From a virus, in IMG/VR virus record IMGVR_UViG_3300020418_000005, positions 1-64,000 of that record: a stretch of 64,000 bases of DNA; one strand, 5' to 3'. The notes beneath the pieces are model-generated. The model had not been told where the DNA came from. It worked only from the letters and a program-made list of their open reading frames with translations, and made no database searches. The position numbers and the translations under genes are program-made. Shown here in pieces: positions 10,156 to 25,261 of the stretch (position 1 is its first letter; each line of letters opens with the position of its first letter).

Positions 10156-10255
10156 CGTTCATCTCCATAAATGACATCTTTAGTATATAGTAGATGTACC
10201 AAGTCACTATTGCGACCAGTATACCAACCATCCATACGACTCCCCATACTACCAT
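10130..10255 (-). CDS. 41-residue single-pass membrane peptide
   Basis: A short frame begins MVVWGVVWMVGILVA and carries one strongly hydrophobic, tryptophan- and tyrosine-rich segment at residues 2-26, then an acidic tail ending DDTTK. It overlaps the end of the upstream oxygenase gene by 7 bases and the start of the nuclease-like gene by 26 bases, and fills what would otherwise be a 93-bp gap. Function is unknown. Hydrophobic frames of this size can arise by chance, so the call rests on context and the clean membrane segment. Confidence 0.5.
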   Translation of the reverse strand: MVVWGVVWMVGILVAIVTWYIYYILKMSFMEMNDGSDDTTK

Positions 10256-10767
10256 GATTTAATATTAATGTCATACGCTATAGATATCCTTTCATCACTG
10301 GATAGTTTTGCTCTATGGTAGAGCATTGAATTAAATATTAATAAGTCTCCAGATCTAACTGGTAACTCGTAGAAACTAGAGTTGTAACAGTTCATATCAT
10401 ATACATCTTCAATAGGAACTTGTGATAAAAAATAATCTGAGAATGGAGAAAAGAATTGTATTACTCCATCTGTAGATAGTGGATAGTAAATAGCAGACAA
10501 AAAACTATTTCTATGATTGTGTGGTTCCTCTATATCTTTATTGATATTATAGTTGCACCAAATTTTTTTAATGTATAACTCTTTACTTTTACAAGTTGAG
10601 TTTAAAATAAGTTTGCCTTCTTTTAAGATACGAGAATTTAACTCTGACAATAATGGATCAGAGGTATCCAAATATCTTTGCTCTTTAAACTTAGATAATT
10701 TTTCGTTATCAATATCACTGAGGTGAAATTGAGATAACCCAACTCCAAATAATAAAGTATTAAACAT
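10249..10767 (-). CDS. 2OG-Fe(II) oxygenase-like protein near ho1 (HxH type)
   Basis: The 172-residue protein fits the double-stranded beta-helix oxygenase pattern of the putative 2OG-Fe(II) oxygenase family typified by Pfam 2OG-FeII_Oxy_5. His83-x-His85 in EPHNHRNSFLSAIYYP is the first metal pair, His151 in MLYHRAK the distal ligand, and Arg160 in SSDERISI the likely 2-oxoglutarate-binding residue. The second ligand is His where classic members have Asp. It is separated from the seven-gene oxygenase array and lies after ho1 and a tiny membrane peptide. The substrate is unknown. Both heme oxygenase and this enzyme would need O2 and iron chemistry, but a shared pathway is only a guess. Confidence 0.8.
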   Translation of the reverse strand: MFNTLLFGVGLSQFHLSDIDNEKLSKFKEQRYLDTSDPLLSELNSRILKEGKLILNSTCKSKELYIKKIWCNYNINKDIEEPHNHRNSFLSAIYYPLSTDGVIQFFSPFSDYFLSQVPIEDVYDMNCYNSSFYELPVRSGDLLIFNSMLYHRAKLSSDERISIAYDINIKSW

Positions 10768-10877: not shown

Positions 10878-11570
10878 TTAATTGGTAATGGAACCAGTAA
10901 TTACTTTCCAGAAACCTTTAAGTGCTGTCAATGCAGGGTATGGATCTTCAGATTTGATCTCATCAAACATGTACATATTCAATCTAAATGCATAGTTTGC
11001 CTCAGCAAATATAGCATTCTTCTGTGATTGATTTAGATTTAACACATCAAGTATTGCCCTGTAATTTGTTTTCCATTCTTTTGCATCATGAATCTCAGGA
11101 AACTCATAGAAATTTAGACCTTCTCCCGCAGGAGGATTAAGTGCACTCTTTGCTATTTTACATAGAATTTGTCCACCTGATAGATCACCTATGTACCTAG
11201 TATAATGATGAGCAAGCAGAAGATATGGATCTTGCTGTGCTAATTCACTAAGTCTAAAACAATAAGTATCACACGCTGGTGAAGGACCTATCTGTTCTTT
11301 CCAATAAGGACCGTAATAATATACTAGATCTTTTTCTAATGCCTGACTACGATCAAGTTGTGATTGCCATCCCTGTAATACTCTTACAGTTGGGTCATCA
11401 GCATCATGAATTAGTCTTTCCATGGTACTGTAAACATACCAGAAATTGGCAATGAGTTTACGATACTCCTCAGGGTCAACAACACCTCTAAGAAATCCTG
11501 CAACAAATTTTGTATTTTCTGCTGCTGAATGAGACTCCTTAGTTGCCTCTTTTAATTCTTTACTGAACAT
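10878..11570 (-). CDS. ho1: Heme oxygenase
   Basis: This auxiliary metabolic gene opens heme to biliverdin IXalpha with release of CO and iron, the first step of phycobilin synthesis. It acts in the host cytosol. The 230 residues include His14 in ESHSAAEN, the proximal heme ligand, and the distal-helix motif GDLSGGQ at 128-134. The size equals cyanobacterial HO1. Phage ho1 genes are known from marine cyanomyoviruses, where they may keep bilin production going during infection or scavenge heme. No bilin reductase (pebS, pcyA) gene is seen in this window. A TATAAATA string ends 13 bp before the ATG, probably too close to serve as its promoter. Confidence 0.96.
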   Translation of the reverse strand: MFSKELKEATKESHSAAENTKFVAGFLRGVVDPEEYRKLIANFWYVYSTMERLIHDADDPTVRVLQGWQSQLDRSQALEKDLVYYYGPYWKEQIGPSPACDTYCFRLSELAQQDPYLLLAHHYTRYIGDLSGGQILCKIAKSALNPPAGEGLNFYEFPEIHDAKEWKTNYRAILDVLNLNQSQKNAIFAEANYAFRLNMYMFDEIKSEDPYPALTALKGFWKVITGSITN

Positions 11571-15254: not shown

Positions 15255-15459
15255 AAGGATCAACGTTTGCGGGTGCTGCGTCAGGTGCTGGTGGTGTTTC
15301 TTGCTCTAAAAGACCTAGTGTTTCTAGTCCTCCTACAAGTTTTAATTTATATTCTTTTGCTTTTGCTAAATTCGTTTCTAACTCTGTTATCTGACTATCA
15401 GTCTTAGCAATTTGTTCTTCAAAGTTAGTTTTTAGTTGTGCTGGATCCATGGTTATCAA
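15250..15459 (-). CDS. Small coiled-coil protein before gp13
   Basis: The 69-residue product is an amphipathic helix (residues 5-50, with TDSQITELETNLAKAKEYK) and a proline/alanine-rich tail ending NVDPS. It looks like a short two-stranded coiled coil with a disordered end. Its function is unknown. The position next to the neck genes suggests a structural or chaperone part, but its ATG overlaps the stop of the last oxygenase gene (ATGA), tying it to that chain. Confidence 0.72.
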   Translation of the reverse strand: MITMDPAQLKTNFEEQIAKTDSQITELETNLAKAKEYKLKLVGGLETLGLLEQETPPAPDAAPANVDPS

Positions 15460-15998
15460 GGTAAGAAATTAAAGTTTATTACGAATCGAGGTTTCTTTGT
15501 GGGTACGCTACTTGAATGATATCGTAGACCATCAAAGAAAACGCATCTACCTTTTACAGGAGATACTGTACTATTTATAGGGTATTCAGCAAGCGGTTCT
15601 CCGTACATTCTTTCGCTGAAATACGTGTCACCATCACTGTCTGATGCATAGTATAGACATACCAAATGTGGATCTGGTAAGTCAACATGCATAGAATCAT
15701 ACTCTTTTGTTCTCACACCTGGCGTCTGTAAAAAACATCTGCCACGTATGACTTTAGATATTGATATGCCTGTATTATAACATGCTTCAAATACTAATGG
15801 AAGAAACATTCCAGAGTATTTACTTGTAGAATTACCATTCAATATAAACATATGAGAGAAACCTACCAACTGACTCTCACCATCTTCACTAAGATTATCA
15901 TGATACACCCATCTAAAATCTGTATCATATCTCATAGTGCTTTCTAAAAGATTCTGATAGTTAGGATTGATGCAGTTGTCCTTAATAATGTTCTTCAT
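15456..15998 (-). CDS. 2OG-Fe(II) oxygenase, array member 7
   Basis: The 180-residue protein is the last of seven consecutive 2-oxoglutarate and iron-dependent oxygenase-like genes. The metal pair is His104-x-Asp106 in DSMHVDLPDPHLVCLYY, the distal ligand His161 in LRYHSSS, and the 2OG-binding basic residue Arg171 in KKPRFVINF. An iron-facing strand YYASDSDGDTYF resembles prolyl-4-hydroxylase-type folds. The gene overlaps its upstream neighbour by 17 bases. The substrate is unknown. Confidence 0.85.
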   Translation of the reverse strand: MKNIIKDNCINPNYQNLLESTMRYDTDFRWVYHDNLSEDGESQLVGFSHMFILNGNSTSKYSGMFLPLVFEACYNTGISISKVIRGRCFLQTPGVRTKEYDSMHVDLPDPHLVCLYYASDSDGDTYFSERMYGEPLAEYPINSTVSPVKGRCVFFDGLRYHSSSVPTKKPRFVINFNFLP

Positions 15999-16578
15999 CT
16001 ACACCCTCCACATTCCATATCAAGTTACCAGATACTGTTACCCTTTCTTTTTGTGTAGACTTAAAAGGATATACAGCATGTTTGGTTGTAGATGGAAACA
16101 TAAGTATTACACCGTTCCAAGTTTTATCTACTGGCAATACATCTGCTTCTAATTGAAACGCACCATTACTATTATGTGACTCTCTTTCTTCAGAACCATA
16201 TGGTATGTCTGTAAAAATTACAAAACTTACTATACCAGTGTGTGTATGTATAGGATTGTATTCATACTGTTGCTGGTAATTTACCCACAGGTTTCTCAGT
16301 CTTATAAAAGGAGTTACGTTTTTTGCTTCTTGAAAATCCCACGGGCATGTTTGATATACCTGTGACCACAACTGTGTAGATAGTCCAACAACATATTCTT
16401 CAAACTGTGGACTCCAATCAGATAGACTTGACTGTTGTTCTAATGCACCAGCAAGTTTATCATTGTAATTCCAAGTCTCTTCCTCCCTTCTTCTCTGTGT
16501 GTAAGAAAGTAATTCTTGATATAAATTTTGTGGCATTTTCTCTGATAGAAAAGAGAAACTATCTTGACTGTATATCAT
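15982..16578 (-). CDS. 2OG-Fe(II) oxygenase-like protein, array member 6 (HxH type)
   Basis: The 198-residue protein has the arrangement of the putative oxygenase family Pfam 2OG-FeII_Oxy_5 or a close relative. The motif pair is His111-x-His113 in NPIHTHTGIVSFVIF, the distal His167 in STTKHAVYPF, and Arg179 in QKERVTVS. The first half is helical and includes LRNLWVNYQQQYEYN, the conserved strand leading to the metal site. Its ATG overlaps the stop of member 5 (ATGA). Having His as the second ligand is a known variation in this group. Confidence 0.83.
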   Translation of the reverse strand: MIYSQDSFSFLSEKMPQNLYQELLSYTQRRREEETWNYNDKLAGALEQQSSLSDWSPQFEEYVVGLSTQLWSQVYQTCPWDFQEAKNVTPFIRLRNLWVNYQQQYEYNPIHTHTGIVSFVIFTDIPYGSEERESHNSNGAFQLEADVLPVDKTWNGVILMFPSTTKHAVYPFKSTQKERVTVSGNLIWNVEGVDEEHY

Positions 16579-17090
16579 GCGTATAAATCTGCACTTAAAC
16601 TATATCGTTTTTGATTTTGAATACCTTTGCCAGGTAAGTGTGGTAAGTTAGATGGAAAGATAAACCAAGTCAATTCTTTTTTAGGTAAAAAATATGGATC
16701 TCTTTTTGGCATAGGAAACATAGTAGTTCCAGACTCACCTAGTTTTATATACATTATACCAGATAATGTGAAAGGATTGTCTGGATTGTGTGAATGCATA
16801 TATGGTTCTATTGGATTATTATTCCAATCCACATACACCCATGAATTTATTTGGAAATCAAATATATCCATACCCCAATACCTAGAACAAGCATCATGAA
16901 ATGTCCATTTTAATTTTTTGATAATAGGTTCATCATACTCTAAGAAATCATCTTTACCATCAGTAAAGGTAAGTTTAGATACATGAGCCATGTTTTGAGT
17001 AAGAGAATCGTTTTCAATATTAGTATCAATAAACTCTATAAGTTTATCTGCGTCAATATCTACTGGATACTCTCTAATTCCTAATACCAT
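16575..17090 (-). CDS. 2OG-Fe(II) oxygenase-like protein, array member 5 (HxH type)
   Basis: The 171-residue protein has His99-x-His101 in YMHSHNPD followed by LSGIMYIKL, the distal His151 in NLPHLPGKG, and Arg162 in QNQKRYSLSADLY. The strand FQINSWVYVDWN before the metal pair is the usual one in this group. It overlaps member 4 by 10 bases. The substrate is unknown. The fold assignment rests on the ordered set of motifs, not on overall similarity. Confidence 0.82.
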   Translation of the reverse strand: MVLGIREYPVDIDADKLIEFIDTNIENDSLTQNMAHVSKLTFTDGKDDFLEYDEPIIKKLKWTFHDACSRYWGMDIFDFQINSWVYVDWNNNPIEPYMHSHNPDNPFTLSGIMYIKLGESGTTMFPMPKRDPYFLPKKELTWFIFPSNLPHLPGKGIQNQKRYSLSADLYA

Positions 17091-17662
17091 TTTCTTGTAT
17101 TCTGTGCAATTATCTTATCGTGAATCTCAGGATCACAAAATGAGAAAGCAATAGTAGTTCTAATCTCATTACCTATTAGTGTGTTTGGTGGTTGTCCTTT
17201 ATGTAACCAGTTAGAAGGAATCAATGCACCTGTATTAGGTACGTATGGTGTGTGATGATATTCATCATCTGGTGTTTGACATACAAACTCACCACCCCAT
17301 TCTTGATCCCAATGTGGTTGATTAAAGTATATAAATGTCCAGACATTATGTTCTTCCCAGTCCTTATGAAACATTGTATTCTGTCCTGCTGTCTGTCCAT
17401 TAGCATGTATCTTACAGAGTTTGATATCTCTCCTAAGAAATTTCATTATCTTTAATCTAACTGTAGTAGCACACTTAGTAAATATCAAATCAGTTCTTAG
17501 TGGATGTTGCCATGATACTGGATCACCCTGTCCATAAGATGCATTATTAAATGTCCATGTAGCAAGTGAGTTCATAGATGGTGATCTACGATCAAAGTAA
17601 TCCCATAATGATATTCTCTCTTCTTGAGATAATACATTACGAATAACGTGAGGTTTATTCAT
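17081..17662 (-). CDS. 2OG-Fe(II) oxygenase, array member 4
   Basis: The 193-residue protein has His99-x-Asp101 in MFHKDWEEHNVWTFIYF, the sheet strand EWGGEFVC, the distal His154 in SNWLHKGQ and Arg168 in GNEIRTTIAFSF. These are the full set of iron and 2-oxoglutarate ligands in their usual order and spacing. Similar phage and bacterial proteins are described as 2OG oxygenases of unknown substrate. The ATG overlaps the stop of member 3 (ATGA). Confidence 0.85.
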   Translation of the reverse strand: MNKPHVIRNVLSQEERISLWDYFDRRSPSMNSLATWTFNNASYGQGDPVSWQHPLRTDLIFTKCATTVRLKIMKFLRRDIKLCKIHANGQTAGQNTMFHKDWEEHNVWTFIYFNQPHWDQEWGGEFVCQTPDDEYHHTPYVPNTGALIPSNWLHKGQPPNTLIGNEIRTTIAFSFCDPEIHDKIIAQNTRKWY

Positions 17663-18192
17663 GCATCACCCCATATCTGAATTGTATATCTAAACTCAGG
17701 TGTATCATGTGCAACAGTAGTTACTAAGTGACTCTCACTACAGTCATTTAATACTAGCATATTTTGTTCTGGTAGAACTGCTCTGTAAACATCAGTTTTG
17801 TTTGGATCTTCATCTAAATTAAGATCAGCATGATCCATCCATACAAACCAACCACCAGCATTTGGATGCCAATGTTCATTTAGATATAGTGTTGCACCAA
17901 ACAAATGATGAGTGTCAGAGTGTACTCCAATACCAGCACCTGGTTGCCATACATTATATCTACATGTCAACTTTTTAAACTCTGGTGCGTGTGGTTTTAA
18001 ATGTCTTGATATTTCATCACTGAATACTTTAGGAATAGCAGTAGCAATAGTTGATCCATGAACACCTTGTCTTAAAAATGGTTTCCATGCAAAGTTACTA
18101 GAAGACCAGCAGTCAGTATTCAACTTAGATCTAAAGTCGTCTACACATGCGTCAAGTAATGATTTAGGTAAAAAGTTCTTTATAATTTTCAT
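17659..18192 (-). CDS. 2OG-Fe(II) oxygenase, array member 3
   Basis: Start chosen at MKIIKNFLPK (177 residues), because that ATG overlaps the stop of member 2 as ATGA. The metal pair is His91-x-Asp93 in GIGVHSDTHHLFGATLYLN, the strand NAGGWFVW follows, the distal ligand is His155 in SESHLVTTV and Arg168 lies in PEFRYTIQIWG. All expected ligands are present. The N-terminal helix with LLDACVDDF is typical of small phage members of this family. Confidence 0.86.
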   Translation of the reverse strand: MKIIKNFLPKSLLDACVDDFRSKLNTDCWSSSNFAWKPFLRQGVHGSTIATAIPKVFSDEISRHLKPHAPEFKKLTCRYNVWQPGAGIGVHSDTHHLFGATLYLNEHWHPNAGGWFVWMDHADLNLDEDPNKTDVYRAVLPEQNMLVLNDCSESHLVTTVAHDTPEFRYTIQIWGDA

Positions 18193-18752
18193 ACCCACCA
18201 AAGCCATCCAGTTATAATATATTTTTCATGCTCCTCTGATATCACACCTCTATGTTTATGTGTTAATCCAGCAGGAAAAATTAATGTTTTTCCTTTCTTT
18301 GCCTCTACAGTATATTCCTGATAAAAGAATTCAGTTCCTCCATTAGGAACATCATTTAGATATGTGATGTATACAAATGCTCTATCACACCCATCAGATC
18401 CTGATGCATCCACATGCCAAGTATAAAAACCATCACCTGGTTTATAGTATTGAATCTGTGGTAGTCTTTGCATTACAAATTCTTGATTGTGAATAGTCAA
18501 AGAGTTCAAGTAATTATCAATAAATCCATTTAACTCTTCTTGGTATAAATCAAATTTATAATCACTAGGTTCTCCTAGAGGACCTGCATCTTCAATAAAA
18601 AAATCTCTACTCTTTTTTACCTCAGGCATGACACTCCCACCACCTACACGACCAGCATAAGTCAAATCTATTTTATCGGCGTCTTTGTATAGATCTATAA
18701 GACGATCACATATACTAAGATCACTCAATGTATATTCTTTTATAAATCTCAT
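18189..18752 (-). CDS. 2OG-Fe(II) oxygenase, array member 2
   Basis: The 187-residue protein resembles prolyl-4-hydroxylase-type proteins: His113-x-Asp115 in FYTWHVDASG, the strand TYLNDVPNGGTEFFYQ, and distal His167 in THKHRGV. The usual 2OG-binding Arg is replaced by Lys177 (HEKYIITGW), which is known in prolyl hydroxylases. The upstream sequence VMQRLPQIQYYKPGDGF is the canonical strand leading to the metal. Overlap ATGA with member 1. Confidence 0.88.
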   Translation of the reverse strand: MRFIKEYTLSDLSICDRLIDLYKDADKIDLTYAGRVGGGSVMPEVKKSRDFFIEDAGPLGEPSDYKFDLYQEELNGFIDNYLNSLTIHNQEFVMQRLPQIQYYKPGDGFYTWHVDASGSDGCDRAFVYITYLNDVPNGGTEFFYQEYTVEAKKGKTLIFPAGLTHKHRGVISEEHEKYIITGWLWWV

Positions 18753-19315
18753 TTATATGCAGGTCCTTGTGTCCACCCAACAAGAGAATGTCTAACACCT
18801 TTAGTCACTGGTTTAACTCTGTGTGGAGTATCAGCATGAAATATTATAACATCTTTCTTCTTTAATTGTACCACATTTTTTTCAGTTGTCTGTATCTCAA
18901 ATTCACCACCTTCAAAATCATCATTTAACATAACTGTAAAACTTATTTTACGTATCCTATTGTTAGGTCTTTTACCTTTTGTCCAACCCATCTCATCACA
19001 ATGCCAATCATAGAAATCACCTACATCATATTTTGTACGTTGTAGAGGTTCCATAAAATTTACATCTAAATTCCAATCACATTTGGTATTAGCAAAATGC
19101 ACAAGACCATCCATCATTGCATAGACTTCATCATTGTCTATCCAGCATAACTTTGAACTTCTATCTTTATTATGTTGTGCTTGATATTTGTTACCATCCC
19201 ATTGATCTGTCTTACCTGATTCATAATCTTGATATGGTTTTATTGCTTTTTCTAATTGTGGAAAGAAATCATCATCAAGATGGACTACCATGTATTGATG
19301 TTTAAATGAATTCAT
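18749..19315 (-). CDS. 2OG-Fe(II) oxygenase, array member 1 (PKHD-type)
   Basis: Start chosen at MNSFKHQYMV (188 residues), because that ATG overlaps the stop of the 560-residue gene as ATGA. The region RTKYDVGDFYDWHCDEMG gives His105 and Asp107, FTVMLNDDFEGGEFEI is the following double strand, HADTPHRVKPV gives distal His165, and GVRHSLVGW gives Arg175. This order closely follows PKHD-type hydroxylases related to prolyl-4-hydroxylase. It is the first oxygenase after the U32/methyltransferase fusion gene. Confidence 0.9.
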   Translation of the reverse strand: MNSFKHQYMVVHLDDDFFPQLEKAIKPYQDYESGKTDQWDGNKYQAQHNKDRSSKLCWIDNDEVYAMMDGLVHFANTKCDWNLDVNFMEPLQRTKYDVGDFYDWHCDEMGWTKGKRPNNRIRKISFTVMLNDDFEGGEFEIQTTEKNVVQLKKKDVIIFHADTPHRVKPVTKGVRHSLVGWTQGPAYK

Positions 19316-20994
19316 TTTTGTAATACCATAACATGTATACCATTCCACCAACCATTAGGATCTTCTGGAACTTTAGTTAGTATTTTTCTCTCAAATAATA
19401 AATTGAGTTTATGTTCTTTTATCCAGAACTCAGATGATTGCACAACACCCATAAAGTTTGCATCGTCAACAACAAGAATAAACTTGTCTGCAAATGCAGG
19501 AATTAAGAATGTAAGATTATCATACTGAGCTTGTGGATCGTGGTCTGCATCATAGAAAATTACATTAGGTTGTTTGTGTAAATCTCTAGGAGTTAGATCT
19601 TGAATTGTCTTAGCACAAAAATATTGTTTCTCTTGTAGTCCTGCCCAAAATATTTTCTTAGGATCTTCATATCCTTCTACTTCTACTTCATCTCTAAAAG
19701 GTGATATCTCTTTCTCAGAATAATTATCTATAGCAAATGATTCTACATCTCTATTCATAGTAGCAGCATAAAATGTGCTACCAGCATGAACTCCTAACTC
19801 CATGTAGATTGCATCAGGTTTAGATAATAAATTATTTAAAAAATGTCTTACTATATTAGATGACAGACCTTCATACTTATATCCTTCCTCTATAAAATTA
19901 CTTTCTCTCCTTGCTGCCTTATCAATAGATTCTAATACTAATTTAATATCGTCATCAAAATGTCTGTCGTTCTTTTTCATTCTAGATTGAACAACAGAAT
20001 CACAATAATTACAATCCCAACAGTCAAACTTACATGTCTTTATTTTTTCTCGCCATATATCAATTGGTCTCTCTTCTAAAGAAACGTCTTCAATATATTC
20101 ATTAAACTGTGGATGTAAAAGTTCTTCATTAGTTTTCCATCTATTAATAATAGACATACTTTCATAAAGACGCATAGCATTTTCTCTACCATGCATCTTG
20201 AATACATCTATACCAAGATCAATAAATTCTTCCCAGTCTTTCCTCCATGGAGGTATAGTTGCTGCTTTCAATGATGCTGCAGGATCTTTCTCATCCCATG
20301 TAGAACAAGATACTCTACTGATACTATCGTTAAAATATTGTGGGTCATCTTTCTCTCTTACCATATTATAATGGTAATGCTCTGGCATGATCGGGCATCC
20401 ACCCCAACACCACTCATTAGAAAGTAATGATATCTTGACAGGTTTACCTATAGATGCACAGTATTCTTTTGCTTTCTTAATTTTAAGTAGAGAATCTCTA
20501 TCACGCATAAGATCTCTGTCTAGATTGATATAATAGAATCCTGCCTTTGCAAGATTTACAATTTCATTTGGTCTAGTAACTTCTCTGAGTATAGTATTCT
20601 TTACTTTTAATTCTGGAAACTCTCTCTGTATCTGCCCAGTCAACATCCATGTTGTATGTGGTAGGGTAACTATACGAACACCATTGTCATACAAGAATCT
20701 AAAATTCTCAATAAAAATATCCAAGTTCTCTTGTGTAGGAGGAACTTGGATATTATTAAATGTTGCAGACAAAGGTATCCCAGTCTCCTGTGATACAAAC
20801 AAAGCATTTAAAGTTGTTTCTCTGATGTCACCATCAATTACGTCACCCATTGCATCTTGCGTAAAGGGTGGCATACGACAGGTAAAATAGATATCGTAGA
20901 TATATTCCTTATGTTCTTGTAGAAAAGGAATGAATTGGTTTACTACAAAATCCTCAGGTAATTTAGTATTAAGAGGTAGCGAGAAACTTGCCAT
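19312..20994 (-). CDS. U32-like Fe-S protein fused to a class I methyltransferase
   Basis: This 560-residue protein has two parts. Residues 1-340 resemble a peptidase-U32-type TIM barrel, with GIPLSATFNNIQVPP, GVRIVTLPH and AGFYYINLDRDLMRDRD as successive strands and helices. Cysteines at 39, 179, 196 and 200 follow a pattern close to the [4Fe-4S] ligands that I recall for UbiV (39, 180, 193, 197). A second cluster lies at 321, 325, 328 and 331. Residues 380-560 look like a class I SAM methyltransferase of the Methyltransf_24 type: MELGVHAGST (motif I, 399-407), acidic Asp423 after strand 2, FYDADHD (480-486) and VVDDAN (508-513). Substrate unknown. It overlaps the upstream gene by 26 bases and member 1 of the oxygenases by ATGA. 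Confidence 0.7.
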   Translation of the reverse strand: MASFSLPLNTKLPEDFVVNQFIPFLQEHKEYIYDIYFTCRMPPFTQDAMGDVIDGDIRETTLNALFVSQETGIPLSATFNNIQVPPTQENLDIFIENFRFLYDNGVRIVTLPHTTWMLTGQIQREFPELKVKNTILREVTRPNEIVNLAKAGFYYINLDRDLMRDRDSLLKIKKAKEYCASIGKPVKISLLSNEWCWGGCPIMPEHYHYNMVREKDDPQYFNDSISRVSCSTWDEKDPAASLKAATIPPWRKDWEEFIDLGIDVFKMHGRENAMRLYESMSIINRWKTNEELLHPQFNEYIEDVSLEERPIDIWREKIKTCKFDCWDCNYCDSVVQSRMKKNDRHFDDDIKLVLESIDKAARRESNFIEEGYKYEGLSSNIVRHFLNNLLSKPDAIYMELGVHAGSTFYAATMNRDVESFAIDNYSEKEISPFRDEVEVEGYEDPKKIFWAGLQEKQYFCAKTIQDLTPRDLHKQPNVIFYDADHDPQAQYDNLTFLIPAFADKFILVVDDANFMGVVQSSEFWIKEHKLNLLFERKILTKVPEDPNGWWNGIHVMVLQK

Positions 20995-21217
20995 AATCTA
21001 CGATCACTGCTTCCATATATAAATGTTCTTCACCAGGTTTATCTACTAAGATACCCTTGTGTGTCTCTGCTAGTTGCTCCAACTTTGATTGATCCAATTG
21101 TGGATATGTAATAGTGTCGCCACTTGTATCCCCTAATTCATACCTTTGCCATATAGCATGATGAATTACAGGCAATAGATCAAGATGTCTACTTGTTGGA
21201 TTAAAAAATCTATCCAT
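20969..21217 (-). CDS. 82-residue hypothetical protein
   Basis: The start chosen is MDRFFNPTSRHLDLL. The protein has PVIHHAIWQRYELGDTSG in the first half and an acidic, mixed second half ending VDYGKFLATS. I do not recognise it. It overlaps the preceding gene by 8 bases and the 560-residue gene by 26 bases. A CATAAATA string lies 42 bp upstream inside the previous gene (21259-21266) and could be a further late promoter for the modification genes. Confidence 0.65.
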   Translation of the reverse strand: MDRFFNPTSRHLDLLPVIHHAIWQRYELGDTSGDTITYPQLDQSKLEQLAETHKGILVDKPGEEHLYMEAVIVDYGKFLATS

Positions 21218-22046
21218 TTTCCCCTTGTAATTTGTATTGGTTTTCACCCTGTCCACTATATTTATGTTCTAACAGTTTAGGCATTACTATACCATCCTGT
21301 GCTAACTGTGCTTGTAACTTCGGTGCGATCATTTTATTTAGTTTGTCAATACCACCACCAATCATACCAGAATACTGAACAGCAACACCAAGTGTTTCTA
21401 CCTGATCTTCCTCTGGCATATCCATGATTGTAGTCATGTTACCAGAACCAATTCTACCATAAGAAATAATATCCATTGCTGCTTGTTTGCCCATACGAGC
21501 AATCCAATACATTCTTACTTCCTGATGATTCTCTTGACAATAATACTCTAAAGGATGCTCGTCGTCAACATATTTGTCAACAACATTTAAGAAATACTTT
21601 AACTCTAGTTCAGATTGCCTGAGTTTCCTTTTCCAAATACCAATATCATAATCATTTTTTTCCATATCAATTTGCATCAACTCTCTATCAAGTTCGTCAG
21701 GAAGCAATGGCATGTCCCTGTTCAATCTTTTTCTAAGAATCTCTGCCTTTCTAAGACTATTTCTATTCTCCATGTATGCATGATATCTAGTTTCTAGTTC
21801 CATCAATGCTTGACGGACTTTTCTCCATGGAGTTAATTGAGGGTCAGCAACAAAGTGCTCACACTCATACTCTGTCATACCACTATCAAAACGCATAGAT
21901 GCAGACAAGACATCAAAGTCTTTTTTAGTGAGTGCGAACTCGTCTACAAATGACTTTGATAAATGTATTTCGTTTGTGTCTGAACTTATTATATTTTTTA
22001 CGTCTGCAATTATATCTGAAAAATTAGCGTCAGAATTTAAAGACAT
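21210..22046 (-). CDS. Hypothetical helical protein in fibre/modification chain
   Basis: This 278-residue protein is largely helical and charged, with a long helical region at about residues 80-165 (ALMELETRYHAYMENRN, then RLNRDMPLLPDELDRELMQ and KRKLRQSELELKYF) that could form a coiled coil, and a C-terminal part with MIGGGIDKLNKMIAP. No known domain is recognised. Its position three genes after a tail fibre gene makes a fibre chaperone or assembly factor possible. It overlaps the 269-residue gene by 17 bases. Confidence 0.65.
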   Translation of the reverse strand: MSLNSDANFSDIIADVKNIISSDTNEIHLSKSFVDEFALTKKDFDVLSASMRFDSGMTEYECEHFVADPQLTPWRKVRQALMELETRYHAYMENRNSLRKAEILRKRLNRDMPLLPDELDRELMQIDMEKNDYDIGIWKRKLRQSELELKYFLNVVDKYVDDEHPLEYYCQENHQEVRMYWIARMGKQAAMDIISYGRIGSGNMTTIMDMPEEDQVETLGVAVQYSGMIGGGIDKLNKMIAPKLQAQLAQDGIVMPKLLEHKYSGQGENQYKLQGENG

Positions 22047-22839
22047 AGGGTTCTACCTCATACTCTGGTTTGCGATCCCAGTCAGTATCAGATTTTGTTC
22101 TCCCCATCTCAATCGCTTGCTTTTGAGGCAACATGATACCAATGTGATCTTCATATAATATATTTAGGTCCCAAATTTCAGTGCAACTTTCAAATTTCTT
22201 TATTAGGATTTGATATTCTACTAGCATTGTAGATAGTTTATCTTCCCATGCTTCTGCATTTGCAAGTATCTTATTTGAAAGAGTGTCTTTGTCAATATGT
22301 CTTTCAGCAGATAGGTAGTCTAAGAAAGGAGTTTTACTACCACCTAGTCCTTTATTTTCTAACCATTCTCTTGCTTCATGCTTTTGGATTTCCCAAGATG
22401 CTACTTCTAGATCTGTAGTGTTCTTAAGATTCTTAAGACGTGTGTTGTATTCATCTTCAATAATTTCTTTTGCAAAATATATCATGAAGTCTACAACTTC
22501 TTTCTTAATTTCTGGTGTAAGTTCGATAGGAACTTTTAAAACTGGGTTAGCAGGAGTCCATGCATAACCAGCTGAATCAACCGATGCAGCAACCTTACCA
22601 AACGGTCTAATTTCTGAGAAGAAGTTTGATCCGTTATATGCTTGTGCTTTTGTAACTTCTAAGTATTTGTGTTCCCATTCTTTAGATATAGTTTGGAAAA
22701 CTGTTTCACTGACCTCTACACATGAGAAGTGCATCAACGAAAACATTTCGCTGTAGTGCAGTCTGGTATCCCCAGTAGCAGTCATGTTTACAAACTGTTC
22801 TGGATTGATTTCTTTTTCGTTGACGATTAAGTATCTCAT
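22030..22839 (-). CDS. Hypothetical protein coupled to the fibre gene
   Basis: This 269-residue protein begins MRYLIVNEKEINPEQF and is a mix of a short N-terminal beta/alpha part and a long helical middle (residues 115-235, e.g. FMIYFAKEIIEDEYNTRL). It has no recognised domain. The ATG overlaps the stop of the fibre gene (TAATG), so the two products are probably made together. A role as a fibre-specific chaperone or fibre tip partner is inferred from that coupling only. Confidence 0.68.
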   Translation of the reverse strand: MRYLIVNEKEINPEQFVNMTATGDTRLHYSEMFSLMHFSCVEVSETVFQTISKEWEHKYLEVTKAQAYNGSNFFSEIRPFGKVAASVDSAGYAWTPANPVLKVPIELTPEIKKEVVDFMIYFAKEIIEDEYNTRLKNLKNTTDLEVASWEIQKHEAREWLENKGLGGSKTPFLDYLSAERHIDKDTLSNKILANAEAWEDKLSTMLVEYQILIKKFESCTEIWDLNILYEDHIGIMLPQKQAIEMGRTKSDTDWDRKPEYEVEPYVFKF

Positions 22840-24125
22840 TATTGTGCTCGTTTAGCAGTTACAGAAGCGGATGCTGAACAGCAACCACCAGAAGATGTTC
22901 CATAATGTCCTTTTGGTCTAGTAGCAGCTGGCATATTTGTTTCAACGTCAGTGGAGTAATCCCACTTAGTTGTATGGTTGTTCTGCTGACCATCATATTG
23001 TCCCATCATGTATCCTTTGTCTTGACCCATCATCATATTTTCTTCACCATAAGCACGAACTTTAGTTCCGTTCTTAAGACCAGCTCCAGATGATCCACTG
23101 TATTTAGTCCAAGGTGATGTAACATTGTTACCAGTTCCACAGTAGAAGTGACCATACTTAGAAGGAAGTGGTTTACAAACTCCGTCAGGAGACATGTTAG
23201 ATGACCAACCAGCCCAACTATCGTTGGAATGATTGACGTAGTATCTACTACCACGGAAGGATGCCCAAGATCTATTCTCATCACCACAAGATGCAGTGTG
23301 GTCAGAACCAGAAGGTGAGTTACCTACCTGATACATGATCTCAGATGAGTAGTGAAGTTTACCTACAGCAGAGTTACCTCCACCTAAGTTGTAACCAAAC
23401 TGTTGTACCTGTGCAGTAGCAGTTGAGTTTCTATCTCGGTTAACTGGCATATTCCAACCACCAACAGTTGTATATCCCATAACTCCTCTAGGATCGTCTC
23501 CTTCCCAACCATATGGTGAGGTTGGAGAGTAAGTACCACCGCCTGGGTTTGATCCAGTAGTACCAAACATTCGTCTCATACCTGTGTGTAGGTTGATCGA
23601 GTCTGTAAAGTTAGAAGATCCCGTGAAAGAGTTAACGCAACCATGACCATACCCGAAGTAATCACTCCATGTACAGTCAGCGTAAGTAAGTGCTCTAGTT
23701 AGTTGTTCTCCACAATAGAAAGTAATATCATTTGCATGCCATGTTTTATTAACCGTTCTCCAAGGATTAGATCCTTTATACCCCGCCACCAGATAACCGT
23801 GTGTTATCAAACTTCTATATCTGAATCCTGTAAGAGGAGCAGATGCAACAGTCTGACCAGGATACGCCCAGAAAACACCGTTGCTTCCATCAGATACTAG
23901 ATAAGAACCTCTAGTTACATCAGCTGGTTCTGGAATACCACCACCAACTTCATCCCAGTCTGAACCATTCCAAATCTGTGCCTTACCTTCAGATGTATTG
24001 AAGATTAATTGACCTACGTTTGGTGATGCTGGTCTATTCGAGTTATTAAAAGATGGCAGTTTAAGACCTTGCGTCGTTAAACTCGCATTACCTGTTAAAA
24101 CTGTTCCAACTGTTAACTGAGACAT
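22839..24125 (-). CDS. Tail fibre protein (428 residues)
   Basis: The N-terminus LTVGTVLTGNASLTTQGLKL and the following GQLIFNTSEGKAQIWNGSDW form a fibre attachment module common in cyanophage and other phage fibre proteins. The rest is Gly/Ser/Asn/Tyr-rich and beta-like, with SYRG-type aromatic segments. The end carries MMGQDKGYMMGQYDGQQNNHT and then a PKGHYGTSSGG segment before a double cysteine, which look like a conserved receptor-side tip. It is preceded by a CATAAATA late motif 25 bp upstream and followed by a TAATG-coupled gene. Confidence 0.8.
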   Translation of the reverse strand: MSQLTVGTVLTGNASLTTQGLKLPSFNNSNRPASPNVGQLIFNTSEGKAQIWNGSDWDEVGGGIPEPADVTRGSYLVSDGSNGVFWAYPGQTVASAPLTGFRYRSLITHGYLVAGYKGSNPWRTVNKTWHANDITFYCGEQLTRALTYADCTWSDYFGYGHGCVNSFTGSSNFTDSINLHTGMRRMFGTTGSNPGGGTYSPTSPYGWEGDDPRGVMGYTTVGGWNMPVNRDRNSTATAQVQQFGYNLGGGNSAVGKLHYSSEIMYQVGNSPSGSDHTASCGDENRSWASFRGSRYYVNHSNDSWAGWSSNMSPDGVCKPLPSKYGHFYCGTGNNVTSPWTKYSGSSGAGLKNGTKVRAYGEENMMMGQDKGYMMGQYDGQQNNHTTKWDYSTDVETNMPAATRPKGHYGTSSGGCCSASASVTAKRAQ

Positions 24126-24157: not shown

Positions 24158-24506
24158 GTTTGGGATTGTTTTCTTTAACTTCTTTCACTTTCTCAAACCA
24201 CTTGGATGTTTCTTTGCCTGGTATAATACCAGCATCCATGTCATGATATAGCATATCCAATTGTTCTGCAAAATCTGGATACTCTTGTTTGCGAGCAAGA
24301 TCGTATGCAGTTGGTTCACGAACTATTTTTTGTAATTCATTTGTTGCTCGGTTGAATTCATAGTCAGCCTCGCCTAAACCTTTATCTATTTCTTCTAGAT
24401 ACTGCACCCACATGAAATCTTCATGTACCTCAAACTGGTCGTCTGATCCACCTTTCACGAACTGAAGTACAGTTCCGTTATGTTTATTTACAAGTACTTG
24501 ATACAT
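24153..24506 (-). CDS. Tail fibre assembly-like protein
   Basis: Start chosen at MYQVLVNKHNG (117 residues), because its ATG overlaps the stop of the glycine-rich protein as TAATG. The C-terminal half reads YDLARKQEYPDFAEQLDMLYHDMDAG and then KVKEVKENNPKP, a pattern (EYP..eQLDmlyHD..aG...W...ik.vK..nPKP) found in many small phage proteins next to fibre genes and believed to help fibre assembly. Its pairing with the glycine-rich gene fits a chaperone or tip role. Confidence 0.75.
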   Translation of the reverse strand: MYQVLVNKHNGTVLQFVKGGSDDQFEVHEDFMWVQYLEEIDKGLGEADYEFNRATNELQKIVREPTAYDLARKQEYPDFAEQLDMLYHDMDAGIIPGKETSKWFEKVKEVKENNPKP

Positions 24507-25261
24507 TAGGTATACTCCCATACGATTACGCAACCAGCACCACCGTTGCCATTATTATGTGCATATCCATTTTGTGAATAATATCCATAAGCACCACCAG
24601 AACCCCATTGTCCATGTGTGCTCTCTGCTCCATCGCTAGAGTTATGATGGTTAGATCCTGCCTTATGCCAAAATGTAGATCCACTACAACCTTCTCTATT
24701 AGAACCGTGTGACATTTCGCCAGGTCCGCCAGGTAGGTTTATATCTCCACCAGAGGCATCTCCACCTCTTCCTCCTTCATATGGGTTATCAGTGTAACCA
24801 CCTTGTCCACCAGAAGCAGAGCAATAGTTACCAAAAGATGAAGTTCCTCCAGATCCTCCTCTACCACCATTACGAGCATAACCACCGCCACCACCATATG
24901 TGTAGTTAACGCTGTTTACACCAGAAACATCAATGTATTTAATAGCAGTAGCTCCACCGCCACCACCAGCACCACGATAGTTGTTGTCATTACAACGACA
25001 ACCTCCACCACCACCAGTGACGTAAACTAATACATGATTACAACCAGATGGTTTTGTCCATGTACCAGATCCACCAGAGGTTGATCTATCTGCCCAGTTT
25101 CCATTCTGTGATGTATATGTTTTGATGCCAATTAAAGCACCAGGAGTTGTCATTTCAGAATAACCACTTCCATTCCATATTCTCAAATTATCGTTTTGCA
25201 GATCCATTATATTAACACCAGCGGTGTTTTGGATCTGGTCTACTTTTAAAATACCTGCCAT
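24506..25261 (-). CDS. Glycine-rich tail adhesin-like protein
   Basis: The 251-residue protein starts with an attachment-like ILKVDQIQNTAGVNIMD. A beta region with GTWTKPSGCNHVLVYV follows at about 66-82, and then glycine-rich motifs (GGGGGCRC, AGGGGGATA, YGGGGGYAR, GGRGGSGGT, GGQGGY, GGRGGDASGG) up to the C-terminal CVIVWEY. Such glycine-rich motifs are seen in adhesins of the T2 gp38 type, where they pack as polyglycine II helices at the fibre tip. Here the role is inferred. Several cysteines and histidines in the C-terminal part may matter. A TATAAATA motif lies 39 bp upstream, inside the end of the giant fibre gene. Confidence 0.78.
   Translation of the reverse strand: MAGILKVDQIQNTAGVNIMDLQNDNLRIWNGSGYSEMTTPGALIGIKTYTSQNGNWADRSTSGGSGTWTKPSGCNHVLVYVTGGGGGCRCNDNNYRGAGGGGGATAIKYIDVSGVNSVNYTYGGGGGYARNGGRGGSGGTSSFGNYCSASGGQGGYTDNPYEGGRGGDASGGDINLPGGPGEMSHGSNREGCSGSTFWHKAGSNHHNSSDGAESTHGQWGSGGAYGYYSQNGYAHNNGNGGAGCVIVWEYT

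Follow-up and report, generated by a model that had tools for sequence, protein, structure and literature searches.

The fusion gene and its surroundings

The window analysed here (64 kb of a 74,825-base IMG/VR virus record) carries T4-like genes for the neck protein gp14 and the tail sheath stabiliser gp15, together with a large terminase-like ORF. The gene under study is listed with its surroundings in Table 1. It is a real and conserved ORF, for whose product an initial annotation, made from the DNA letters, proposed a U32-like Fe-S domain joined to a class I methyltransferase.

Table 1. Features of the fusion locus, with positions in the window
Feature	Position	Strand	Remarks
Glycine-rich protein	24506..25261	-	matches Pfam Gly_rich_2; precedes the fibre gene
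Fibre-like protein (T4-GC 351 homologue, "sericin-like")	22839..24125	-	candidate substrate
p1604 (phrog_1604, label: unknown)	22030..22839	-	constant upstream neighbour
p1409 (phrog_1409, label: unknown)	21210..22046	-	constant upstream neighbour; record count equal to that of the fusion
Small ORF, 82 aa from its ATG (20969..21214)	20969..21256	-	between p1409 and the fusion, overlaps both
U32-like / putative O-methyltransferase fusion protein	19312..20994	-	560 aa, ATG start, phrog_1458
Predicted N-terminal U32-like barrel and Cys4 tail, residues 1-346	19957..20994	-	fold of 5d88, phrog_5757/PF01136 homology, invariant residues, alignment to UbiU/TrhP/RlhA
Predicted class I AdoMet methyltransferase domain, residues 358-560	19312..19923	-	Methyltransf_24, fold, invariant residues
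Seven overlapping 2OG-Fe(II)-oxygenase-like ORFs	15456..19351	-	directly downstream of the fusion; number differs among phages
Heme oxygenase	10878..11570	-	Pfam, 223 bits
Eighth 2OG-Fe(II)-like ORF	10249..10767	-	

The whole protein belongs to phrog_1458 (E 7e-229), a family labelled in PHROG as of unknown function, and gave no matches in NCBIfam. It is present in 123 cyanophage records (each match covers at least 80% of the protein, with identity below 60%), as well as at 476 or more IMG/VR loci, and all of its closest sequenced relatives are encoded by phages of Synechococcus and Prochlorococcus. One scan of cellular genomes detected the fusion on two contigs only (L164 and L165), both phage-like in appearance and placed in MAGs labelled Euryarchaeota UBA439 and Dehalococcoidia RS371; these are probably phage sequences misassigned in binning, and neither MAG yielded a PF01136 match. 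A putative separate family consisting of the N-terminal half alone (phrog_36869) was dropped, since the viral contigs examined carried either the full fusion or a copy cut by the contig end. When the whole protein, each of its halves and a T4-phage relative were searched against PDB sequences, nothing usable was returned, the one match (E 0.005) being a fragment of a cyclopropane-fatty-acid synthase.

We surveyed the neighbours of the gene in 161 fusion-bearing loci, using as denominators the loci with enough flanking sequence. Upstream of the fusion, the fibre-like gene was found in 95 of 97 loci, p1604 in 90 of 97 and p1409 in 118 of 127 (for six of the nine others, BLAST-level matches exist). 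The small ORF between p1409 and the fusion is conserved in 65 loci (25-100% identity by tblastn) and is diverged or missing in the remoter cyanophages. The initial annotation had emphasized the placement of the fusion directly before seven O2-dependent oxygenase genes. This is the case in the window, but elsewhere the number of 2OG-oxygenase genes within 4.5 kb of the fusion varies from 0 to 7 per locus, and a gene of this family lies no more than 1.5 kb downstream in 102 of 125 loci, so that the upstream fibre, p1604 and p1409 genes are the steadier companions.

The fusion and p1409 were each found in 123 records, with an identical split among genera by organism name (77/38/8; counts were compared, not accession lists), the full-length fibre protein in 121, and the tail gene gp15 in at least 438 cyanophage records. 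Since many of these records are isolates that barely differ (S-RIM2, S-RIM12), the co-inheritance counts are inflated and reflect far fewer than 123 independent events; synteny is strong among cyanophages in any case. In phage S-ShM2, the fusion and p1409 lie 6 kb apart and both have been retained. Within the window, all genes from the fibre gene to the seventh oxygenase overlap or almost overlap, which is consistent with their forming one late operon.

Several features of the neighbouring genes may be added. The N-terminal segment of the fibre-like protein is common to many cyanophage proteins, and its C-terminal part is repeat-rich (Gly, Ser, Asn, Tyr and Trp being abundant) and possibly β-propeller-like; in its full length, the protein is conserved almost only in fusion-carrying phages. 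The product of the glycine-rich gene recalls phage adhesin tips. The eighth 2OG-Fe(II)-like ORF and a clear heme oxygenase gene are located in the interval that separates the neck genes from the terminase. Proteins that match 2OG-Fe(II) oxygenases (compare 15456..19351 of the window and L082:10686-11195) go under the name "DNA endonuclease V" (denV) in several cyanophage records and in phrog_274, which is probably a propagated misannotation.

Fold and conserved residues of the two halves

No direct match to the Pfam U32 family (PF01136) was obtained with the cyanophage N-terminal half. Two independent lines of evidence nevertheless assign it, at the level of model and sequence, to a divergent branch of this family: (i) its predicted fold and (ii) sequence homology that runs through T4-phage intermediates. 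An AlphaFold model of residues 1-346 (43 sequences in the input; mean pLDDT 81, pTM 0.81) has as its best solved fold the U32 protein Mk0906 (5d88; Z 15.8, rmsd 3.4, 221/247 residues), followed by methylenetetrahydrofolate reductases (MTHFR; Z 13.8, rmsd 4.2). The nearest structure is thus a U32 protein and not an unrelated fold, although Foldseek by itself places 5d88 second, level with MetF; with the full-length model, 5d88 (Z 15.2) is the sole U32 entry among the matches listed. As for sequence, tblastn connects the N-terminal half with the RB69ORF050c-type "peptidase" of T4 phages (E down to 2e-4, 24% identity, 90% of the half covered), and profile-profile comparison by hhalign connects it with phrog_5757 (probability 93%, E 2.9e-7, 295 columns). 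These T4-phage homologues match PF01136 (Peptidase_U32) at 42-45 bits, the cut-off being 22.4 bits, and UbiU weakly.

UbiU, TrhP and RlhA have a KIEGR motif (VKIEGRQ, LKIEGRT and FKIEGRY in the alignment), whose counterparts are FKMHGRE in the cyanophage fusion and FKVSGRT in the T4-like phages. In the fusion, its residues K266, G269 and R270 (K266-x-x-G269-R270) are invariant across the 129 distinct fusion homologues in which conservation was counted.

The C-terminal half is, as judged from model and sequence, a class I methyltransferase of the COMT/TylF clan. The match of Methyltransf_24 to this protein (residues 399-511) scores just under the cut-off (23.6 versus 26.3 bits); 20 of 36 homologues are matched, with a best E of 3.9e-7, and the fold bears out what the initial annotation had claimed. 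The model is confident (pLDDT mostly 80-97), and comparison of residues 358-560 by VIA-align gave Z scores of 16.0 for TomG, 15.9 for TrmR, 15.8 for MycF and 14-15.6 for COMT relatives. Since these scores tie, TrmR cannot be preferred over COMT or the sugar O-methyltransferases. The AdoMet motif E/D-x-G-x3-G-x-T is conserved throughout the fusion homologues, and G401, G405, T407, D423, D482, D510, D511 and N513 are invariant in all 129; D482, D510, D511 and N513 are candidate metal-site positions, as would be expected of a metal-dependent O-methyltransferase. The fusion shares with TrmR and the O-methyltransferases of the COMT/TylF clan the fold (Z 14-16), the AdoMet motif and the invariant acidic residues, but sequence identity to them is just about 10-17%.

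A different picture from that initially drawn emerged for the cysteines. Residues 39, 179, 196 and 200, which had been grouped as a site with UbiV-like spacing, are indeed all cysteines in this protein. However, they are not one conserved site: among the 129 homologues, position 39 is occupied by Cys in 78, Thr in 33, Ser in 17 and Arg in one (i.e. in 40% it is not Cys), whereas C179, C196, C200, the previously unlisted C230, C321, C325, C328 and C331 are invariant in every one. As eight cysteines are kept in all of these distinct proteins, conservation of the fusion at the sequence level is far beyond chance. C39 was rejected as a UbiV-like ligand on account of its limited occurrence.

The proven cluster ligands are C169, C176, C193 and C232 in UbiU and C39, C180, C193 and C197 in UbiV (PMC6747719). 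In an alignment of 11 sequences of low identity, which included UbiU, UbiV, TrhP and RlhA of E. coli, C200 and C230 form the two Cys columns common to all 11 (UbiU C176 and C193), and C196 adjoins UbiU C169. UbiV C180 and C193 fall in the columns of C200 and C230, respectively, and not in those of C179, C196 and C200. The resemblance to UbiV, itself a U32-type cluster protein, is therefore a coincidence of residue numbers; moreover, UbiV lacks the KIEGR motif, and its pattern CXnCX12CX3C does not occur in the fusion.

TrhP, RlhA and UbiU have in common with the fusion the U32 barrel, three aligned Cys positions (C196, C200 and C230) and a KIEGR-like motif. In contrast to them, the fusion lacks the CX6C and the terminal CX3C, and has C179 and a second group of four cysteines. 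The canonical cluster spacing of the RlhA/TrhP type (CX6CX15CX3/4C) is not kept, and the fourth canonical U32 ligand (CX3C) is absent from the phage branch; the invariant C179 probably completes a U32-like cluster site in its place. The second group, C-x3-C-x2-C-x2-C at positions 321, 325, 328 and 331, lies ahead of the methyltransferase, in agreement with the initial annotation. The T4-phage proteins have a counterpart (C-x4-C-x3-C-x2-C) and the four aligned E. coli proteins have none, which is why this putative second metal site seems to be characteristic of the U32 proteins of phages. At the cysteine loops the confidence of the model is low (pLDDT about 41-68).

U32 relatives in T4-like phages

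The relatives of the N-terminal half (phrog_5757, RB69ORF050c, "peptidase U32") are found in the T4-like phages EcS1, X20 and Marfa and in the RB69 group. They are homologous to the whole of the half and have C179, C196, C200, C230 and the Cys4 tail in common with it. They differ in being stand-alone proteins that lack a methyltransferase, in their cysteine loop (C-x10-C versus C-x3-C in the fusion) and in their company, which consists of chorismate mutase and thymidylate-synthase (TS)-like genes, unlike the fibre genes that accompany the fusion.

In the T4-like phages, the U32 gene is part of a cluster situated between the DNA polymerase gene and uvsX, which also contains genes for D-arabinose-5-phosphate isomerase and sugar-nucleotide genes. 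In several of them it is immediately followed by a small gene, identified here as that of a type II chorismate mutase (36-47 bits; cut-off 27), and then by the TS-like gene. Examples of the three genes together are L167:7902-11021, L166:7908-11024, L171:5914-8907 and L183:3992-7108. The chorismate mutase gene is mostly labelled "hypothetical" in T4-like phages; in Erwinia phage Virsaitis27, the small gene beside U32 is already annotated as chorismate mutase.

The product of chorismate mutase is prephenate. This compound is required by TrhP for tRNA hydroxylation (PMC6599085) and supplies the hydroxyl group in anaerobic ubiquinone synthesis (PMC11574389). The T4-like group makes arabinosyl-hydroxycytosine DNA, and the formation of 5-hydroxy-dCMP has been credited to a TS homologue (PMC13390438). 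The pairing of U32 and chorismate mutase genes in the hydroxylation pathway of these phages lends good circumstantial support, by analogy, to the retention of U32 oxidase chemistry in the phage branch, and it suggests that prephenate-dependent U32 chemistry, as opposed to the TS homologue alone, may participate in their DNA modification.

We were able to detect chorismate mutase (CM_2) in both T4-like controls, but not in the cyanophage records searched (G000, P-SSM4, S-CAM4 and two large IMG/VR contigs). If the cyanophage fusion uses prephenate, this would therefore have to come from the host.

Proposed activity and substrate

We propose, giving the reading about an even chance, that the fusion is a bifunctional enzyme which carries out U32-type ring hydroxylation and then O-methylation, its likeliest substrate being a component of the fibre module. 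The N-terminal half would hold one [4Fe-4S]-type cluster through C196, C200, C230 and probably C179, and C321, C325, C328 and C331 would form a second metal site, occupied by either a second cluster or zinc. On the model of TrhP, RlhA and UbiU, this half would hydroxylate an aromatic or pyrimidine-like ring independently of O2, with prephenate as the probable source of oxygen. The C-terminal half, acting as a metal-dependent class I O-methyltransferase, would then transfer a methyl group of AdoMet to the hydroxyl just formed, thereby capping it. The order of the steps is modelled on TrhP and TrmR, which act in succession in B. subtilis, and the presence of two sites in a single chain may reduce the loss of the intermediate.

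In B. subtilis, the trhP1-trhP2-trmR operon makes mo5U34, and TrhO-TrmR gene fusions also exist (PMC6599085). Both arrangements resemble the cyanophage protein in that a hydroxylase and an O-methyltransferase working in sequence are linked, by operon or by fusion. They differ from it in that the eukaryotic TrhO-TrmR fusions use the O2-dependent TrhO, and the bacterial U32 genes are separate.

As regards the substrate, we tentatively place the fibre module first, because of the constant link of the fusion to the fibre gene within a late operon that encodes two other conserved proteins. A nucleic acid or nucleotide, a rather unlikely choice, comes next, and a glycan or small molecule follows. 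A more specific proposal, which we consider improbable, is that the U32 half hydroxylates aromatic side chains of the fibre (e.g. Tyr or Trp) without O2, that the same polypeptide O-methylates them, and that the neighbouring 2OG oxygenases add further hydroxyls. On the gene map, O2-dependent oxygenase genes do adjoin a member of a class known for O2-free work.

The fibre-directed reading has to be weighed against a role in nucleic acid or nucleotide modification, in which the protein would oxidise C5 of a pyrimidine (in a DNA precursor, DNA or tRNA) and the methyltransferase would generate a 5-methoxypyrimidine. The nearest homologues of the N-terminal half sit in a phage 5-hydroxycytosine pathway, beside chorismate mutase and the TS-like enzyme; TrhP and RlhA act at C5 of RNA pyrimidines, TrmR converts ho5U34 to mo5U34 (PMC6599085), and the structure of TrmR with bound tRNA ranks with the best fold matches of the C-terminal half. 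However, the fusion gene is located among late fibre and neck genes, away from the replication genes, there is no tRNA gene within the window, and 5-hydroxy-dCMP of the T4-like phages is credited to the TS homologue (PMC13390438). The lack of chorismate mutase in the cyanophage records searched and the different gene neighbourhood place the cytosine-cluster pathway of T4-like phages below the fibre reading, and we regard nucleic acid modification as a whole as possible but somewhat unlikely.

Less probable again is that the N-terminal half serves as a U32-like structural or electron-transfer module (a cluster domain or a fibre-assembly chaperone) with no hydroxylase activity, the methyltransferase alone being catalytic. 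Such a role would be in keeping with the altered cluster spacing, and the second Cys4 might hold an electron-transfer cluster or a structural zinc; in addition, the literature searched, the scope of which did not extend to Mahler 2025 (Cell Host Microbe) and Lee 2025 (bioRxiv), yielded no activity for a phage U32 protein. Against it stand the invariance of the KIEGR equivalent and of the eight cysteines in all 129 homologues, and the pairing of the T4-phage relatives with chorismate mutase, the maker of the U32 oxygen source.

The poorest candidate is a TylF/NovP/MycF-like methyltransferase acting on a sugar hydroxyl of the virion or host, with the U32 half performing an unrelated redox step: MycF, NovP and SpnH (Methyltransf_24/TylF clan) score as high as TrmR and COMT, and the invariant Asp-Asp pair D510-D511 is nearer to the TylF-type metal site than to the Asp-Asn of COMT, but no sugar-biosynthesis gene was recognised beside the fusion, Pfam gave no TylF match, and the known U32 oxidases have aromatic or pyrimidine rings as substrates.

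Only recently have the U32 oxidases been recognised as a class of enzymes; they insert oxygen without O2, using prephenate as an unusual oxygen source, and the chemistry of this reaction is unsolved. These oxidases, O-methyltransferases and the pairing of the two in operons are already known, while a single-chain fusion of U32 and O-methyltransferase is not described in the papers searched. The company of the tail-fibre gene hints at a two-step chemical decoration that would be new to that literature. A phrog_1458-type fusion is present in approximately a quarter of sequenced T4-like cyanophages and is common in the sea, and the proposed activity would supply a function for this family. In one phage lineage, a U32 protein has been fused to a presumed capping enzyme, and in another its partner is a chorismate mutase, within a gene cluster for DNA modification; this phage branch, with its probable second metal site, may thus offer compact new systems for probing U32 chemistry and substrates. 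If aromatic side chains of the fibre do prove to be the target, the cassette would be dedicated to the maturation of a receptor-binding fibre, and the fusion would be the first U32 enzyme with a protein as its substrate.
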